12,385 nucleotides of DNA from Actinomycetota bacterium (GTDB lineage Bacteria > Actinomycetota > Coriobacteriia > Anaerosomatales > Anaerosomataceae). Within the stretch, counting starts at the first letter, position 1. The number at the start of each line of letters is the position of its first letter. The position numbers and the translations under genes are program-made. Below, one piece after another: positions 1,089 through 10,922 of the stretch. The notes beneath the pieces are model-generated. The model worked only from the letters and a program-made list of their open reading frames with translations, was not told where the DNA came from and searched no databases. The stretch is taken from assembly GCA_011372845.1 (NCBI GenBank), contig DSAI01000085.1, forward strand, positions 1-12,385. Reading direction: 5' to 3'.

Positions 1089-2588
1089 GTGCGCTTCAAG
1101 ACGATCCGGTCACGCGTTGCCATCGTTGCCACCCTGTTCGCGGTCGTGCTGGTGGCCACCATCGCCGTCGGCACCTACGCGCTGGTGGCGCGCGGGATGC
1201 AGGCCGCTGCCATCGAGACGGCCGGGCTTCTTGCCGATGTCGCCGAGCGCGTCACGCGAAACACTCTCGATACCGCGCGCGAGCGTGCTGAGTCGGCGGG
1301 CATGGACCGTGAAGAGGCCCAGGCGGCGATGCTGGCCGCCATGGTGGAGGAGCCGCCGGCCCCCTTTGCCGAGGGCCTCGCGTACGAAGGCTCCTTCGCA
1401 CTGCATGTGATCCAACAGCCAGGCGATGAACCCGTCATGGTATGGGGCGTCGGTGAGAGCCATGAGGCGGGCGACGAGACGCTGCGCATGCGGGCGTTCA
1501 CCGGCGACGGGCCCGTGGCGGACTTCCCTGGCGCGCAGCCGCTCATCCGGGGGATGTTCGTGCGTGCCGACCTCGGCGTGTACTCATACTACCTTCCGCT
1601 CGAACTCCCGGGTGTGCACGCGGCTGTGCTCGATGTCGCGTACATGCCACGGGACCAGGAAGCCATCCTCGACGCGACGCGCCTTCCGATCACGGTCCTC
1701 GGCTTGATCGCCCTCACCGGGTCCCTCCTTGCGGCGATGGGGACCACGCGGCGGGCGATCTCCCTGATCGACGACCTGCGGCGCACTGCCGACTCCGTCG
1801 ACGTCGGGGTCCTGGACGTGCGACTGCCGGAAGAGGGCGGTACCGAGGTCGTGGACCTTGCGCGATCGCTCAACCGGCTAATCGACGGTCTTCAGCGGCG
1901 CAACGAGGTGCAGGCACGCTTCATCGCGGACGCATCGCACGAACTCGCCACACCGGTGGCCGGCATACGCGGCTATGTGAACATCCTCCGTGCGTGGGGG
2001 GCCGAGGATCCCGCGCTCCAGGAGGAGGCGGTGAGCGCGATCGATCGAGAGTCGCGCAGGATGGCGCGGCTGTGCAGCGACCTCCTGTCGCTCATCAGGA
2101 GCGAAGAGCAGGTCGAGTACCGGCAGATCCGGTACGACATCAACGCCGTCTGCCGGGAGGTGCTCGCCAACGCGGCCACGCGCTATCTTTCCAAGGAGCT
2201 GCGATTCACGGGACCGCGTGAGGGGCCACTGTGGCTGCACGGTGATCCGGATCGCATCGAGGAAGCGCTGGGCATCCTTGTCGACAACGCGTGCAAGTAC
2301 ACGCCCGATGGAGGGAGCGTGTCGGTGACCACGCGCAGGTCTCGAGATCGCGTCGTCGTCGACGTGACGGACACCGGCGTGGGTATCCCGGAGGAGGACC
2401 TGCCCAACGTGTTCGAGCGCTTCTATCGCAGCGACATCTCACGCTCGCAGGAGACCGGAGGCTTCGGGCTCGGCCTGGCGATCGCCAAACACATCGTCGA
2501 CGTGAGCGATGGCACCATATCGGTGAGAAGCACGGTCGGCTCGGGTACCACCTTCGAGATCTCGCTTCCGAGGCAGAGGGTCAGATGA
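1089..2588 (+). CDS. Membrane sensor histidine kinase (HAMP, HisKA, HATPase)
   Basis: A 499-residue inner-membrane kinase, partner of the response regulator immediately upstream. A first membrane helix lies at about 10-34, an extracytoplasmic sensor region at about 35-195 and a second helix at about 196-218. A HAMP-like linker follows at about 219-270. The H-box around H284 reads SHELATPVAG, where the usual arginine after HEL is alanine. The ATP-binding domain has N400 (DNACKYT), the DTGVGIP box and the GGFGLGLAI lid, so it should be active. The extracytoplasmic domain shows no motif I recognise, so the ligand is unknown. The start is GTG at 1089, with AAAGGG at 1073-1078 as a modest ribosome site; no better start was seen. 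Its TGA overlaps the ATG of the next gene, which suggests translational coupling. Confidence 0.92.
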   Translation: MRFKTIRSRVAIVATLFAVVLVATIAVGTYALVARGMQAAAIETAGLLADVAERVTRNTLDTARERAESAGMDREEAQAAMLAAMVEEPPAPFAEGLAYEGSFALHVIQQPGDEPVMVWGVGESHEAGDETLRMRAFTGDGPVADFPGAQPLIRGMFVRADLGVYSYYLPLELPGVHAAVLDVAYMPRDQEAILDATRLPITVLGLIALTGSLLAAMGTTRRAISLIDDLRRTADSVDVGVLDVRLPEEGGTEVVDLARSLNRLIDGLQRRNEVQARFIADASHELATPVAGIRGYVNILRAWGAEDPALQEEAVSAIDRESRRMARLCSDLLSLIRSEEQVEYRQIRYDINAVCREVLANAATRYLSKELRFTGPREGPLWLHGDPDRIEEALGILVDNACKYTPDGGSVSVTTRRSRDRVVVDVTDTGVGIPEEDLPNVFERFYRSDISRSQETGGFGLGLAIAKHIVDVSDGTISVRSTVGSGTTFEISLPRQRVR

Positions 2589-3187
2589 GCGGAGGCAAGA
2601 TGCGTCAGACCCGCTTCATAGCGCAGGCTGGAGTGATCGCCGCGGTGTATGCCGCCACCAGCCTCGTGATGATCCAGAGCCCGCTCGGTTACGGCCCTGT
2701 GCAGGTGCGCCTGTCCGAGGCGCTCACCGTGATCGCGTGTCTCACGCCTGCTGCGATACCGGGCCTGTGGGCGGGGACGTTAATCGCGAACGCGTTCATG
2801 CTCACGCATGTCGGCGTCCTGGGTCTCCTCGACGTGGTCCTCGGTTCCCTGGCTACGCTCCTCGGGGCGCTCTGGACCTGGAGGTATCGGCATCGTACCG
2901 CGCTGGCGCTTGCGGGACCGGTCGTGACCAACGCGCTCATCGTCCCCGCCTATCTTCCGTTGATGCTGGCGGGTGTCGCGGGCATCGACTTCTACCGCAT
3001 CGAGCAGCTCGGCCTGGACGCATCAGGGACATGGCTTACGATGTACCTGTTCGGTGTCGCCGCGGTCGGCCTTGGCCAGGCCGCGGCAGTGTACGGGCTC
3101 GGCCTCCCGCTGCTGGTGGCGCTCAGGCGTCTCGGCCTTGCGGAGCGGCTCGTCACGAACGGGCGGGGGGATATGCGTGGACAGTGA
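2585..3187 (+). CDS. queT: QueT-family ECF transporter substrate-binding (S) subunit
   Basis: A 200-residue, very hydrophobic protein with about five or six membrane helices. The N-terminal AGVIAAVYAA, then GYGPVQVRLSEALTV, then AAIPGLWAGTLIAN and LDVVLGSLATLLGA, match the QueT (DUF988) family in order. Members are thought to be S components that capture queuosine precursors for a shared ECF energy-coupling module; the substrate assignment in the family rests largely on preQ1-riboswitch association. No energising ATPase or T subunit lies in this window, so it would need one encoded elsewhere. The ATG at 2585 overlaps the kinase stop by four bases, preceded by AGAGGG at 2575-2580. An in-frame ATG at 2600 behind GGAGG (2591-2595) is a serious alternative and would remove five residues. 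No riboswitch-sized leader exists here, since the gene lies inside the run. Confidence 0.85.
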   Translation: MSGGKMRQTRFIAQAGVIAAVYAATSLVMIQSPLGYGPVQVRLSEALTVIACLTPAAIPGLWAGTLIANAFMLTHVGVLGLLDVVLGSLATLLGALWTWRYRHRTALALAGPVVTNALIVPAYLPLMLAGVAGIDFYRIEQLGLDASGTWLTMYLFGVAAVGLGQAAAVYGLGLPLLVALRRLGLAERLVTNGRGDMRGQ

Positions 3188-4964
3188 GGCGGACGGGCGC
3201 CGAGGGGCGCTGATCGCCCACGGGGCCGAGGGGTGCACCGGCTGCTGGACCTGTGTCAGGTGCTGTCCGGTGAGCGCTATCCGGGTGAGCGGTGAGTGCG
3301 CGGAGATCGTCCAGGAGAAGTGCATCGCGTGTGGACAGTGCGTGAACGAGTGCGCACGGAGCGGCATCACGGTGCGCGACGACACGCCACGGGTCCGCGA
3401 ACTGCTGCGCACTCACCGGCACGTGGTGGCTCTGCTTGCGAGCGAGTTCATCGCGGCTTTGTATCCGATGACCGTCGTCCAGATCGAGCGCTCGCTTGAG
3501 GTCATGGGCTTCGATTCGGTCGAGACCACGCTCCTTGGGGAGGAGCTCGTCGCCCAAGCGTACGAGCAGCTTCATGCGCGGGAGGGCAGCGTGCCAAGCT
3601 TGAGGTCCACCTGTCCGGTGGCGATCGACTTCGTGCGCAAGTACCACCCGGCGTTCGTCCAGGCGCTCGCGCCGATCGTGCCGCCCTACGTGGCGCAGGC
3701 GAGACTCATCCGGGCGGTCTACCCTCACGAGGTCGCGATAGTCTACGTCTCCCCGTGCTATGCGCGCAAGGATGAGGCGCTCGATCGGTCGTTCGATGGC
3801 GCCATAGATGTCGCGATCGACTTCACGGAGCTCAAGAGACTGATCCTCGAGGAACGTCCGCTGGTTCCGGGCGGCTCGGTGACCGCACCAGCGCCGAGCA
3901 GGCCGGGCGCGCTGAAGGAGATCTCGCTTACCGACGGGTTCCCTCGGCAGACCCTGGTCTCACGCAATCTGACCGATGCGTCGGTGCACGTCGTACGCGG
4001 TGTTCGAGAGATAGACCGCTTGCTCACGGCCATCGGCGCGGGTGAAGCGGGTCCGCTGGTCATCGACATGCTCAACTGCGAGGGGTGCATCGACGGCCCC
4101 GCTGTGAACCCCAGTCTGTCGCTGTTCGCCAAGCGCAACGTCGAGGCGGCAGCGCGAAGGAGCCCCGGCACCACGCAGGTCAGCACTCGGGCGATGCTGA
4201 CCATGCTTCCCGCGGTTGATCTCATCCGTTCCTTCGTGGCCGAGCCGGTCTCCGTGCCTGTGCCGGATGATGCCGCGATCGACGCGGTGCTCGCCGAGGG
4301 TGGTTTCACACGGGAGACAGCGCTCGACTGCGGTGCATGCGGGTGGCCCACATGCCGTGCGCACGCGGCTGCGATATACAATGCCGAGTCGAGCTGGGAT
4401 CTCTGCCTGCCGCTCCAGCGGCGCCTCCTCCGCGAGCATGCGGCCTCTCTCGCCGAGACCCAGACGCTTGATCCGACTACGGGCCTGTGGAACACGCGCT
4501 CCTTCGGCGATCGTCTGGCCGTCGAGATCGCTCGCCTGAACCGGTACGGGTCGCCGGTATGCGTGGCGTTGATAGACGTCGGCGGGCTCGATGCCATCCG
4601 TGGCGCGAACGATGGATCCGAGGCTGACGAGGCGCTGCGTGCGATCGGCGGACGCTTCAACGCATGCCTTCGCGCCACGGATGTCCTGGCGCGGTGGACC
4701 GGTGACCGATTCGCCGTTGCGCTGTCGGGCGTGAACAAGACCGAGGCGTTCGCCGCGGCCGAGAAGCTGCGCGAGAGCGTGTCCGCGTTCGCACTGGCGG
4801 GCGACGGCTCCGGGTATACACAGGGCGTGAAGGCCACGATATCGATCGGTGTGGCCTCCGCCCCGCGGGGGGCGGAGGCGCGTGATGTGCTGGAGTCGGC
4901 CGACACCGCCCTTCTCGAGGCGATACGCGCCGGAGGAGATCAGGTGCGCCTGGCCCTCGGCTAG
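3177..4964 (+). CDS. Sensory-type [FeFe]-hydrogenase-like protein with degenerate GGDEF domain
   Basis: A 595-residue soluble multidomain protein. Residues 20-59 hold two 4Fe-4S motifs (C20, C23, C26, C30; C49, C52, C55, C59). Residues about 80-345 resemble the [FeFe]-hydrogenase H-cluster domain, with C146 (STCP), C194 (SPCYARK) and C301/C304 (NCEGC) in place of motifs L1, L2 and L3. Residues 385-410 form a Fes-type Fe-S domain, C-x2-C-x4-C-x16-C (C385, C388, C393, C410). A helical linker leads to a GGDEF domain at about 430-595. The signature is TGDRF (508-512) instead of GGDEF, so cyclase activity is unlikely, but the c-di-GMP inhibitory motif R499-A-T-D502 stands at the correct five-residue distance. 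This suggests a redox or H2 sensor that binds c-di-GMP, rather than a catalytic hydrogenase; that role is inference. The GTG start at 3177 follows a G-rich site and overlaps queT by 11 bases. An open frame extends further upstream but lies wholly within queT. Confidence 0.85.
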   Translation: MDSEADGRRGALIAHGAEGCTGCWTCVRCCPVSAIRVSGECAEIVQEKCIACGQCVNECARSGITVRDDTPRVRELLRTHRHVVALLASEFIAALYPMTVVQIERSLEVMGFDSVETTLLGEELVAQAYEQLHAREGSVPSLRSTCPVAIDFVRKYHPAFVQALAPIVPPYVAQARLIRAVYPHEVAIVYVSPCYARKDEALDRSFDGAIDVAIDFTELKRLILEERPLVPGGSVTAPAPSRPGALKEISLTDGFPRQTLVSRNLTDASVHVVRGVREIDRLLTAIGAGEAGPLVIDMLNCEGCIDGPAVNPSLSLFAKRNVEAAARRSPGTTQVSTRAMLTMLPAVDLIRSFVAEPVSVPVPDDAAIDAVLAEGGFTRETALDCGACGWPTCRAHAAAIYNAESSWDLCLPLQRRLLREHAASLAETQTLDPTTGLWNTRSFGDRLAVEIARLNRYGSPVCVALIDVGGLDAIRGANDGSEADEALRAIGGRFNACLRATDVLARWTGDRFAVALSGVNKTEAFAAAEKLRESVSAFALAGDGSGYTQGVKATISIGVASAPRGAEARDVLESADTALLEAIRAGGDQVRLALG

Positions 4965-4972
4965 GAGGCATC

Positions 4973-6028
4973 ATGGAGCACGAAGCGCTTCTGTGGGAGC
5001 CCGATGGCTCGCGCATACACTGCCTTCTGTGCCCCAACGACTGCCGCATAGCAGTAGGAGCGCGTGGTACCTGCGGTGTGCGTGAGAACCGCGCCGGGCG
5101 GCTCATCGCGCTGACGTACGGGCTGGTCTCGTCGGTTGCGGTCGATCCGATCGAGAAGAAGCCGGTCTTCCACTACCAGCCCGGCGCCACGGCGCTCTCG
5201 CTCGGCAGCGTCGGCTGTTCTATGCGATGCGCGCACTGTCAGAACTGGCAGATCAGCCGTGCCGCGGTGGGCGAAGACCCGCACCTCGAGTTCCTGGAGC
5301 CGTCGGCAGTGCCGGATCTGGCCCGTCGACACGGTTGCGCAGGGGTGGCGTTCACCTACAACGAGCCGGTCATCTGGGCCGAGTACGTGCTCGACGTCGC
5401 ACGGCACTCCCACGAGAACGGCCTCTACACGGTGATGGTGACCAACGGGTATGTCACCGAGGCGGGTCTTGACCTGTTCGGGCCGCTTATCGACGTGTGG
5501 CGGGTCGATGTCAAAGGATTCGACGACGCGACCTACAGGAGGCTCTGCAAGGTGCGCTCGGTGAAGCCGGTGCTGGAGATGGCGGAGCGTGCTAAGTCGA
5601 TGTGGGGCATGCACGTGGAGGTCGTCACCAACGTCATCCCCACTGTGAACGATGACGATCGTACTCTGCGGGGTATCGCGGGGTGGATCCGCAGTGGTCT
5701 CGGCGAGGACACGCCGTGGCACATCACGCGTTTCTTCCCGTATCTCGATCTCTCGCATCTCGAACGCACGCCGCTCGAGACGCTCGAGCGTGCACGGCGG
5801 ATCGGACATGAGGAGCGGCTGCACCACGTCTTCCTCGGCAATGTGGACGTGCCCGGCGCAGAGGACACGGTGTGTCCGGCGTGCGGCTCGGTCGCTGTGC
5901 GCCGGCGAGGCTACACGATCGTCGATCGACACGTGAGCGATGGAGCTTGCGCACGCTGCGGCGCGCCGCTGGGCATCATCGGCGGAGATGAACCGCTATC
6001 ATGGAAGCCGACCTCGCACGGTGGATGA
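4973..6028 (+). CDS. amrS: AmmeMemoRadiSam system radical SAM protein AmrS
   Basis: A 351-residue radical SAM protein. The SAM-cluster motif C82-SMR-C86-AH-C89 is intact, preceded by an N-terminal cysteine set (C17, C20, C24, C34) typical of this family, which resembles pyruvate formate-lyase activating enzymes. The stretch around VDPIEKKPVFHY and the FTYNEPVIW segment are also characteristic. Near the C-terminus a CPACG ... CARCG pair forms a zinc-ribbon or rubredoxin-like tail. The name AmrS comes from recurrent association with AMMECR1 and Memo proteins; neither is in this window and the reaction of the system is not established to my knowledge. The ATG has GGAGG at 4964-4968, overlapping the upstream stop codon and four bases before the start, so it is translated next to the hydrogenase-like sensor. 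Both are iron-sulfur proteins, which may reflect a shared anaerobic role. Confidence 0.9.
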   Translation: MEHEALLWEPDGSRIHCLLCPNDCRIAVGARGTCGVRENRAGRLIALTYGLVSSVAVDPIEKKPVFHYQPGATALSLGSVGCSMRCAHCQNWQISRAAVGEDPHLEFLEPSAVPDLARRHGCAGVAFTYNEPVIWAEYVLDVARHSHENGLYTVMVTNGYVTEAGLDLFGPLIDVWRVDVKGFDDATYRRLCKVRSVKPVLEMAERAKSMWGMHVEVVTNVIPTVNDDDRTLRGIAGWIRSGLGEDTPWHITRFFPYLDLSHLERTPLETLERARRIGHEERLHHVFLGNVDVPGAEDTVCPACGSVAVRRRGYTIVDRHVSDGACARCGAPLGIIGGDEPLSWKPTSHGG

Positions 6029-8085: not shown

Positions 8086-8948
8086 CGGGGCGCTTCTTCG
8101 CGGACGCCACGGCGGCCCAGGTGGACAAGCTTGCGCGGGCGCTGGTCGCTGCCCGTGTGTTTCCCGACGAGCAGACGCTCCGTGCGCACCATCGCGACCA
8201 TCCCTGGATGATCCAGGTGAGCGGGCGGGGCGATGTGGCCGTGCTGGACCGGTGGCGCGACCACCTCGACCTGCTTGGTGTCGAGGCCCTGTGGTGTCCG
8301 GTGCGCCATATCGGCGACGCGGTCACCCACCTCTCGTCCTGTGCGGCTGAGCACGGTTTCTCCGGTCTGGTGAGCTCCCCGGTCAGGTCCAGCGATGTGC
8401 CCGTGTATGAGGCCGCAGGCATGCGCGTCCGCGAGACGCTCGCCGTGCTCGAGCTCACCCCGGTGTGCCCCGCGGCCGCTCCCGGGCGCCCCGATGTGTC
8501 GACGCGAACCGCCCTTGCGGCCGACGCCGAGGAGATCATCGCCATCGACGGCGAGTGTTTCGAGCCGTTCTGGCACTACGATATTCGCTTGATGCGGAGG
8601 TTCCTCGACGCTGGCGGGGTCACCCTGGCCGAGCGTGACGGGCGCTGCGTCGGCTATACTCTGAGCACGGTCGACCGCGGGTCGGCGGTGCTGGGCCGGC
8701 TCTGCGTGCGCGTGTCCGACCGCCGTGTCGGCATCGGATCGCTTCTGTTGGAGGCGGCCGTTTCGCGAGCACGGGAGGGCGGAGCGCGGCACATGACGCT
8801 CTCGGCGCGGACGGGGAACGCCGCCGCGCTGGCGCTGTACCGCTCGGCAGGCTTTGCCGATACGGGTCGGCGTTACGCGTTCCTCACGGTCGGAGACGAG
8901 ACGGGGAGGGATCGGGGCCATCGCATCGGTTCGCTCATGGGTCGTTGA
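8082..8948 (+). CDS. Two-part GNAT-family N-acetyltransferase
   Basis: A 288-residue cytosolic protein. Residues about 145-275 form a complete GNAT domain, with acetyl-CoA pyrophosphate loop R214-R-V-G-I-G219 and the late NAAALALYRSAGF signature. The first half, about 1-135, ends in a stretch (SDVPVYEAAGM ... LAVLEL) that mirrors the LYRSAGF ... AFL end of the second half, but it has no visible Q/RxxGxG loop. It therefore looks like a decayed or acceptor-binding GNAT repeat. The acceptor is unknown; protein alpha-amine, small amine or antibiotic substrates are all possible for the superfamily. The ATG overlaps the exporter stop as ATGA with no strong ribosome site, so coupled translation is likely. 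The 3' end is overlapped by the frame of the next gene. Confidence 0.82.
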   Translation: MTGRFFADATAAQVDKLARALVAARVFPDEQTLRAHHRDHPWMIQVSGRGDVAVLDRWRDHLDLLGVEALWCPVRHIGDAVTHLSSCAAEHGFSGLVSSPVRSSDVPVYEAAGMRVRETLAVLELTPVCPAAAPGRPDVSTRTALAADAEEIIAIDGECFEPFWHYDIRLMRRFLDAGGVTLAERDGRCVGYTLSTVDRGSAVLGRLCVRVSDRRVGIGSLLLEAAVSRAREGGARHMTLSARTGNAAALALYRSAGFADTGRRYAFLTVGDETGRDRGHRIGSLMGR

Positions 8949-10209
8949 CGCGACCCTGGTCCTGACAACGGCGATCATCGCCATCGTCGTGGGGGCGGGT
9001 CTGTTCGGGATGGTGCCCGAGCCGGTGTTCATCGCTGCCACAATCGCCCTCGCTACCACGGCGATGGGGACCGTGGCGATGCGACTCATCAGCCGCCCCG
9101 ATCACATCAAGGCGCTGCAGTCACACCAGATCGTGGTGATCGCCGACCGGTCGCTGGCGTACCTGCGCCGGGGTCTCGACGCCGAGACCGCGCAGGAGGT
9201 CTGCAGGCTGGCGCTCGCCGAGAGCGAGGCGGCTGCGGTGGCGATCACCGACACCGAGACCGTTCTCGGTTTCGCGGGCATCGGGGAGGACCACCACGAG
9301 GTGGGCGGGCCGATCCTCACGAAGGCCACGCGCGAAGCGCTTGAGACCAACGAGCATCGCATCCTTGGCACGAAGGACGAGATTGGCTGTCCACGGCGCG
9401 ATTGCCTGTTGCGCGCGGCGATCGTGGTCCCGTTGGAGGTCCGCGAGAAGCCCGTAGGTACGCTGAAGTTCTACTACACCACGGCCAGGCTGTTGAACGA
9501 GACCCAGATCGCTATGGTGAGCGGTCTCGCCCGCCTCCTGTCGACGCAGCTCGAGCTCTCGGAGCTCGAGCACCAGACCGAGTTGGCGTGCAGGATGGAG
9601 CTCAAGGCGCTGCAGGCGCAGATCAACCCGCATTTCCTGTTCAACACGATCAACACCATCGCGATGATGATCCGCACCGATCCGGGAGGCGCGCGCGACC
9701 TCCTTCGCGAGTTCGCCGCCTTCTACCGGCGGATGCTTGAGGACAACGAGGGGCTCGTCCCGCTCGAGCGGGAGGTCGAGTACGCCCTCACCTATCTCCG
9801 GTTCGAGCAGGCACGGTTCGGTGACCGTCTGCGCGTGGTCTCCGACCTCGACCCCGAGGTGCTGGCGACCCACGTGCCTGCGTTCATCCTGCAGCCGATC
9901 GTGGAGAACTGCGTGCAGCATGGTGTTCGCGAGGAGGGCCCTCTCACCGTGTCGATCACGGCTGGGAGGGTCGATGGAGACGTCCGCGTGGCGATTGCTG
10001 ACGACGGGGTGGGAATATCCGAGGAGGACCTGCCGCGCGTGCTCGAGGTGGGGTTCGGGACCGGCCTCGGTATCGCTCTGGGCAACGTCCACGATAGACT
10101 GAAGGGGCACTTCGGCCCCGGAAGCGGCCTGAGCGTGGAAAGCGAGGGCGGAGAGGGGACCGTGGTGACGGTGACGATCGCGTCCTCGCCGGAGAAAGTG
10201 GACCGATGA
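8854..10209 (+). CDS. LytS-type sensor histidine kinase with GAF domain
   Basis: A LytS/YpdA-class kinase. One or two hydrophobic segments (about residues 35-75) anchor it, much less than the 5TM-Lyt region of classic LytS. A GAF domain follows at about 95-230 with the family stretch EDHHEVGGPIL and a C179-x4-C184 pair. The His_kinase domain has H260 in QINPHFLFNT, N352 in QPIVENCVQHG and ADDGVGI, so it should be active. Its partner is the LytTR regulator that overlaps it by four bases. The start is uncertain: TTG at 8854 overlaps the acetyltransferase by 95 bases, and no ATG or GTG occurs in frame before the first hydrophobic segment. A strong GGGGAGGG (8903-8910) stands before two in-frame ATC codons (8911, 8920). 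Residue numbers here count from 8854. The real protein may be about 20 residues shorter. Confidence 0.86.
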   Translation: MPIRVGVTRSSRSETRRGGIGAIASVRSWVVDATLVLTTAIIAIVVGAGLFGMVPEPVFIAATIALATTAMGTVAMRLISRPDHIKALQSHQIVVIADRSLAYLRRGLDAETAQEVCRLALAESEAAAVAITDTETVLGFAGIGEDHHEVGGPILTKATREALETNEHRILGTKDEIGCPRRDCLLRAAIVVPLEVREKPVGTLKFYYTTARLLNETQIAMVSGLARLLSTQLELSELEHQTELACRMELKALQAQINPHFLFNTINTIAMMIRTDPGGARDLLREFAAFYRRMLEDNEGLVPLEREVEYALTYLRFEQARFGDRLRVVSDLDPEVLATHVPAFILQPIVENCVQHGVREEGPLTVSITAGRVDGDVRVAIADDGVGISEEDLPRVLEVGFGTGLGIALGNVHDRLKGHFGPGSGLSVESEGGEGTVVTVTIASSPEKVDR

Positions 10210-10922
10210 CCACGATGCTAAAAGCGTTGCTGGTGGACGACGAGGTCCCCGCACGTTCCGAACTCCGTTACCTGCTGGGCGAGGCCGGCGGCGTGGAGGT
10301 CGTGGGCGAGGCCGGCAGCGCGAGCGAGGCGCTCCAACTCATCCGCGCCATACCGTACGACGTCGTCTTCCTCGATGTCAGCATGCCGGGGCTCAGCGGG
10401 ATAGAGTTGGCCGAGGCGCTCTCCGGGCTCGATCATCCACCCGCGCTCGTGTTCGTCACCGCGCACAGCGAGCACGCGGTGAAGGCCTTCGAAGTAGCCG
10501 CAACCGACTATCTCGTGAAGCCCGTCGAGGTCGAGCGGCTCAAGATGGCAATCGAGCGCATCGCCCCGGCCGCCGAGACGCCGGTGCGCGTGGAGCGGAT
10601 CCCCGTGGAGAAGGGCGGTCGCAAGCTCCTGCTCCAGGTGGCCGATATCACTCACATCATGGCCAAGGACGACTACAGCTACATGTTCACTGATGGTGAA
10701 CGCTACCTCTCCACGTTCTCATTGGCCGATCTCGAGGGCCGTCTGGAGTCGCAGGGGTACTTCCGGGTCCACCGCCGCTTCCTTGTGAACCTCTCCCACG
10801 TGGCCGAGGTCGCTCCCATGTACGGCGGTACGATGGAGCTGACGCTGAAGGACCGGGCGCACACGCGCATACCCGTCTCACGACGACGCGCACCTGCGTT
10901 GAAGCGCGTCCTGGGAATCTAG
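10206..10922 (+). CDS. LytTR-family response regulator
   Basis: A 238-residue response regulator. The receiver domain (1-120) has the acidic residues D11 and D12, phospho-acceptor D57 (FLDVSMPG) and the conserved lysine in YLVKPVE. Residues about 135-238 form a LytTR DNA-binding domain with the typical MAKDDYSYMFT strand and the FRVHRRFLVNL core. It should bind direct-repeat promoter sites as a dimer after phosphorylation by the LytS-type kinase encoded just upstream. The two genes overlap as ATGA, the usual arrangement for this kinase-regulator type. An ATG at 10215 is a possible alternative start that would remove three residues. Regulons in this class often include membrane transport or envelope genes; the targets here are unknown. 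Confidence 0.93.
   Translation: MTTMLKALLVDDEVPARSELRYLLGEAGGVEVVGEAGSASEALQLIRAIPYDVVFLDVSMPGLSGIELAEALSGLDHPPALVFVTAHSEHAVKAFEVAATDYLVKPVEVERLKMAIERIAPAAETPVRVERIPVEKGGRKLLLQVADITHIMAKDDYSYMFTDGERYLSTFSLADLEGRLESQGYFRVHRRFLVNLSHVAEVAPMYGGTMELTLKDRAHTRIPVSRRRAPALKRVLGI

Follow-up and report, generated by a model that had tools for sequence, protein, structure and literature searches.

The locus described here raises the question of what is sensed, and what signal is given out, by a protein in which a hydrogenase-like domain is joined to a GGDEF domain. The gene lies in the window, by which we mean the whole stretch of 12,385 nucleotides that was analysed, from a member of the Coriobacteriia, and an initial annotation had proposed that its product could feed H2 or redox state into c-di-GMP signalling. 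The reading of open reading frames and a Pfam domain search gave a single intact frame of 595 residues (Table 1), and the domain search bore out the two 4Fe-4S motifs, the H-cluster-like domain, the FeS-type cluster and the GGDEF domain that had been noticed in it, including a profile match of the middle region to Fe_hyd_lg_C. The GGDEF domain of the window protein has the PleD fold and counts as a GGDEF domain by that fold. The Fer4x2-H-FeS-GGDEF architecture is real and conserved: it is present in 20 named loci whose products are 46-68% identical to the window protein and, among the 120 matches listed, 111 span at least 95% of the query. At the positions of the 4Fe-4S motifs, the 249 family members have Cys wherever a letter is present (8 to 44 of the 249 rows are gapped in these columns), except for one Gly at position 23. 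The GGDEF output is a new variant among H-domain sensors; in line with the initial annotation, which knew of no characterised protein of this kind, neither the Fer4x2-H-FeS-GGDEF architecture as such nor a GGDEF output on an H-domain protein of the HydS type was met in the literature searched, a set that covers few subscription papers.

Table 1. Positions in the window of the H-domain/GGDEF gene, its domains and motifs, and its two adjoining genes.
Feature	Position	Strand	Remarks
QueT-family transporter gene, upstream neighbour	2585..3187	+	PF06177; start codon chosen by us
Whole gene, Fer4x2 - H-domain - FeS - GGDEF	3177..4964	+	595 aa, GTG start
Two ferredoxin-type 4Fe-4S motifs, C20 C23 C26 C30 / C49 C52 C55 C59	3225..3356	+	Fer4_10
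H-domain (Fe_hyd_lg_C), residues 82-308	3420..4100	+	
Motif L1, STCP; C146 at cluster ligand position, T145 for C299 (CpI)	3606..3617	+	
Motif L2, SPCYARKDE; C194 at ligand position, S192 for M353, R197 for K358	3750..3776	+	
Motif L3, NCEGC; C301 and C304, CxxC replacing CxxxC	4074..4088	+	
C-terminal FeS cluster motif Cx2Cx4Cx16C (C385 C388 C393 C410)	4323..4412	+	PF04060
Helical linker from cluster to GGDEF	4413..4466	+	Helix 411-428 in structure model
GGDEF domain with degenerate A-site	4467..4940	+	
I-site motif RATD (R499, D502), five residues ahead of the signature	4671..4682	+	
TGDRF where GGDEF is expected	4698..4712	+	
AmrS-type radical SAM gene (AmmeMemoRadiSam), downstream	4973..6028	+	TIGR04337, 303 bits, cut-off 220

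The conservation of the residues around the active site of the H-domain is of particular interest. These were compared in a family set of 249 rows, composed of search matches and loci and including certain genes twice; four loci (L001, L023, L037 and L041) are left out of the family alignments, L002 gave no match, and CpI residue numbers were assigned by position from the shared cysteines. All four ligand positions of the H-domain (C146, C194, C301 and C304) are Cys in 249/249 members. The canonical motifs with which their surroundings were compared are TSCCP (present in 25 of 30 group A loci), MPCxxKxxE and CxxxC. The family has T145 at the site of the proton-transfer cysteine C299 (247/249 members), S192 for M353 (233/249), L299 for M497 (248/249) and R197 for K358, the last being Arg in every one of the 249 members. 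Lys358 binds one of the cyanide ligands of [2Fe]H; our literature search found no paper on Lys358 with cyanide. The equivalent of Lys358 is Lys in 110/110 Bacillota relatives read and, judged from these residues, the Lys-to-Arg change sets the Coriobacteriia GGDEF family apart from its Bacillota relatives, and the active site of the H-domain is rebuilt, not abandoned.

The distribution of the H-cluster maturases bears on what such a site could hold. Among 246 genomes of the class, 63 of the 69 that belong to the window's order have a match to Fe_hyd_lg_C, one per genome except in G124, which has two; the figure counts the H-domain match alone, the identity of the GGDEF protein having been examined in L001 and in 18 loci (L024-L041, of which L037 is truncated by a contig end and L041 interrupted by N). 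Nineteen of the 21 relatives searched first match Fe_hyd_lg_C at 56-116 bits. Scores in the rest of the class, among the matches listed, run from 214 to 323 bits, with weaker best matches in three further class genomes (E 3.1e-53 to 2.7e-42); by the NCBIfam cut-offs, the strongest group of these matches includes two that belong to group A, and the second includes three that belong to group B. HydG was found above cut-off in 0/69 genomes of the order, 51 of which have a completeness of 90% or more and a contamination of 5% or less, and HydE and HydF were each above cut-off in 0/21 relatives, where the many matches below cut-off are other GTPases and radical SAM proteins. A HydG match at E<=0.001 is present in 6/69 genomes, four of them scoring 161-191 bits and the other two 18 bits against a cut-off of 312, and the two HydG-like frames that were read (L002 and L078) have CxxxCxxC and lack CxxCx22C, the motif that marks HydG; we take both to be ThiH-like. 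The HydG profile works, since it finds HydG above cut-off in 156/299 Bacillota genomes, and among 14 control genomes one was above cut-off in each of the HydG, HydE and HydF searches, with Thermotoga maritima among the control matches in all three. Since the genome that contains the window has a completeness of 70%, the maturase argument is drawn from its relatives. The absence of maturases, the Arg in place of Lys358 and the CxxC third motif together make a complete H-cluster in the window protein unlikely. The H2-activating [2Fe] site is probably not made in the order, and since HydG is found in none of the order's genomes sampled, the window protein probably responds to a signal other than hydrogen. 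The absence of HydEFG may also be compatible with another, non-HydEFG route of maturation; a literature search on sensory hydrogenases without HydEFG turned up a single review, on cyanobacteria.

The CxxC motif alone cannot exclude an H-cluster, because 42 of the 55 Bacillota genomes carrying the CxxC form have HydG (a status assigned by hand from the search table, with no match or a best E weaker than 1e-90 taken as lacking, in genomes of unstated completeness among which G512, at 3.3e-89, is a doubtful call). A rule that CxxC means no maturase was considered and rejected: on the same assignments, the CxxC-only Bacillota genomes comprise 36 with HydG and 12 without, the CxxxC-only genomes 25 with and 15 without, and the genomes with both forms have HydG in 6 of 7 cases. 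The Bacillota also indicate what the module is used for. A Fer4-H-FeS profile matches 187/299 of their genomes at E<=1e-12, the weaker matches perhaps without the full module, and in the 110 full-length relatives read, taken from the stronger among the profile matches listed, the third motif is CxxC in 60 and CxxxC in 50. A motif scan of the 60 CxxC tails gave a sigma-54 activator in 42, a histidine kinase in 13, GGDEF and HD in one and no assigned motif in four; the same scan found sigma-54, kinase and GGDEF/HD motifs in 0/50 tails of the CxxxC form, and the sole CxxxC protein scanned with Pfam (L080) has a PAS domain. Pfam confirmed a sigma-54 activator fusion with a Fis-type HTH (L081) and, in the Bacillota genome G474, a Fer4-H-FeS-GGDEF-HD protein with a canonical GGEEF (L167), in which the same module has a c-di-GMP-type output outside the Coriobacteriia too. 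Fusions of an H-domain to a sigma-54 activator are common in Bacillota (L081, L084, L086 and others; 42/110 by motif). The joining of the homologous module to sigma-54, kinase, PAS and GGDEF-HD domains is as signal input predicts, and therefore favours a sensor.

Phylogeny places the window protein with these relatives. In a quick 99-row tree (30/60 CxxC and 25/50 CxxxC Bacillota rows, 14/20 further loci, 7/30 group A loci and L023), the Coriobacteriia GGDEF proteins form one clade among FeS-bearing proteins with support 100, and this clade together with 69 Bacillota FeS-bearing proteins is set apart from the 8 group A or group A-like rows, again with support 100. L023 is group A-like (TIGR02512 385.4, cut-off 405.95), and the 99-row tree is thus one without group B rows; the two group A loci scanned of the 30, L048 and L052, pass TIGR02512. 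When 8 group B rows were added, the resulting 107-row tree, which like the 99-row tree includes no named TmHydS or TamHydS sequence, gave the GGDEF clade with support 100, group A apart with 97, a tie between the GGDEF clade and the Bacillota CxxC form with 77, and a split between the FeS-bearing proteins and the 8 group B rows with 62. Two class assignments were tried and rejected: a group A hydrogenase, for which the window protein scores 68.5 bits with TIGR02512 versus a cut-off of 405.95 and from which the tree sets it apart, and a group B hydrogenase, for which it scores 118.5 bits with TIGR04105 versus a cut-off of 450, the tree separation here being weak (62).

Of the alternatives to be weighed, the one that survives best, although it is fairly unlikely, is a genuine [FeFe]-hydrogenase of the group C/D type that senses H2 and has a c-di-GMP output, and whose maturases were missed by the profiles or lie outside the binned genomes. 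It is possible because the organisms use H2 via [NiFe] enzymes: full-length PF00374 [NiFe] matches of more than 470 bits are present in 18 of the 21 relatives, and isolates of the Anaerosomatales grow on H2 (PMC9686372). The window protein also shares the cluster layout of TmHydS and TamHydS, including Cx2Cx4Cx16C, and agrees with TamHydS in having Ser for M353 and Leu for M497, so far as the available part of the source goes (PMC8163306). This alternative must, however, accommodate the maturase counts of 0/69 (HydG) and 0/21 (HydE and HydF), the lack of the HydG motif in the two HydG-like frames read, and an Arg for Lys358 that is invariant in the family. Of the input first envisaged as H2 or redox, redox (or gas) fits better, and H2 is made doubtful by those same counts. 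The [NiFe] large subunits themselves, of about 550-590 aa (G000:C81:290-1783 and 17 relatives), have one in-frame TGA in 18/18 full-length matches listed, which suggests selenocysteine-containing [NiFeSe] enzymes in the order.

The output can be examined in the same manner. The A-site of the window protein reads TGDRF (T508, R511), with G469 and R475 at positions that are D in 246/248 and N in 226/248 members, respectively. At the I-site, 247/248 members retain RxxD, a motif that is common in active cyclases too. A canonical GG[DE]EF is found in 102/248 members, all of which also have D467 and D484. A tree of the H and FeS columns, built without the GGDEF columns, was thinned to 177 rows, of which 81 are canonical at the A-site and 96 degenerate. 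On it, 7 changes account for the state of that site, versus a shuffled mean of 58.9, and the window protein falls within a supported set of 87 rows, 86 of them degenerate; in the outgroup-rooted 99-row tree, the window's clade is degenerate in 13/13 rows and the deeper rows are canonical in 8/9. Given this distribution of A-sites, the window's lineage has probably lost the cyclase signature and retained the I-site, as in c-di-GMP receptors derived from former cyclases, among them PopA and PelD. Turnover of c-di-GMP is likely in the relatives, since EAL domains are present in 20 of 21, and the better reading of the window protein is that of a putative c-di-GMP binder rather than a maker. That it is instead a regulated diguanylate cyclase, catalytically active despite TGDRF, is very unlikely: the PleD fold, the 102 canonical relatives and a Bacillota relative with canonical GGDEF and HD can be cited in its favour, but the window protein itself has T508 and R511 in its signature, and G469 and R475 where D and N prevail in the family. 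A c-di-GMP-related output, as suggested at the outset, is better read as putative binding through an intact RxxD, while synthesis by the window protein is doubtful given TGDRF, G469 and R475. The initial interpretation is partly supported, and its inference of a path from H2 to c-di-GMP is weakened at both ends.

The GTG start of the gene overlaps the QueT gene by 11 bases, and a QueT gene is directly upstream in 38/39 loci (certain genomes counted twice). An AmrS gene begins 8 bases past the stop codon and is directly downstream in 36/38 testable loci; Memo and AMMECR1 are the usual partners of AmrS. Two-component pairs of the OmpR type (402-2588) and the LytS/LytTR type (8932-10922) flank the gene, and the majority of the longer syntenic loci have both. 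The near-constant presence of the radical SAM gene amrS could be taken to favour a Nar1-like factor for Fe-S assembly or repair, with the GGDEF domain as a scaffold and not part of a sensor, and Nar1 has the H-fold and no [2Fe]H according to the part of the source at hand (PMC12621388). The joining of the homologous Bacillota module to classical signalling outputs argues against such a factor, for which we see little likelihood. Finally, the chance that the gene is an artefact, with a hydrogenase fragment joined to a cyclase by misassembly or by a frameshift, the latter allowed for in the initial annotation, is practically nil, because full-length orthologues of the same architecture exist in independent assemblies.

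We therefore return to a sensor, and prefer, with about even confidence, a HydS-type Fe-S redox or gas sensor without [2Fe] and with a putative c-di-GMP-binding output, not an H2 sensor that makes c-di-GMP. A Nar1-like H-domain within such a sensor is the best-supported reading. A [4Fe-4S] cluster would be bound by the four H-domain cysteines, and the empty cavity of the domain may house another small cluster, as proposed for yeast Nar1. The centre in the H-domain and the accessory clusters may respond to the intracellular redox state or to a gas (e.g. O2 or NO), and the change could reach the GGDEF domain via the region of the C-terminal cluster and the 411-428 helix. This domain would act as a c-di-GMP-binding regulator in the window's lineage, and in relatives with a canonical GGDEF it would make c-di-GMP. 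It is also conceivable, if quite unlikely, that the H-domain carries a different metal centre installed without HydEFG, the candidates being a Nar1-like [2Fe-2S] or another cofactor assembled with the adjacent AmrS. If this were true, the proteins would be metallo-sensors of a new kind that are linked to c-di-GMP, in a family found across the order.

The preferred Fe-S redox or gas sensor can be set beside several known systems. TmHydS (group C, M2f) is alike in having two N-terminal 4Fe-4S motifs, an H-domain, Cx2Cx4Cx16C and a C-terminal signalling domain, and in the replacement of C299, in the accessible portion of its description (PMC8163306), where this spacing is reported for HydS enzymes of groups C/D. 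TmHydS is a characterised hydrogenase with a PAS output, whereas the window protein has a GGDEF output, CxxC, Arg for Lys358 and no maturases found. TamHydS (group D, M2e) shares the cluster set and likewise has Ser for M353 and Leu for M497 (PMC8163306); unlike the window protein, it has no PAS or other output domain reported in the available parts of two papers (PMC8163306, PMC13104023). With this same cluster layout both enzymes are H2-active (PMC8163306), TamHydS when matured (PMC8163306, PMC13104023), and the signalling route of TamHydS is unsettled because H2 does not reduce its C-terminal cluster, by the excerpt available to us (PMC13104023). The HydDB groups C1 (kinase), C2 (chemotactic) and C3 (phosphatase), all marked putative, are likewise H-domain proteins tied to regulation; the HydDB table, in the part of the article obtained, has no diguanylate-cyclase-linked [FeFe] class and uses that label for [NiFe] group 2c (PMC5037454). 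Nar1/CIAO3 resembles the proposed H-domain in its H-fold and retained [4Fe-4S] site, without maturases and, because these are absent, without [2Fe]H, and for yeast Nar1 a [2Fe-2S] in the empty cavity and a link to O2 have been proposed, as far as the partial text reports (PMC12621388). Nar1/CIAO3 is a eukaryotic Fe-S assembly factor with no GGDEF domain, unlike the window protein. The Bacillota CxxC proteins have, like it, a module that extends over nearly the whole A1 profile at 320 bits or less (L081), but they keep Lys358 and have other outputs in 59/60 cases. Group B provides the best NCBIfam match of the window's H-domain (TIGR04105, 118.5 bits), whereas in the class the 3 true group B proteins that were scanned reach 605-612 bits, and all 8 that were read are without the C-terminal FeS motif. 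On the output side, PopA and PelD are c-di-GMP receptors with a degenerate GGDEF; they differ from the window protein in their input domains and share with it a degenerate A-site and a retained RxxD, through which the window protein, too, may bind c-di-GMP.
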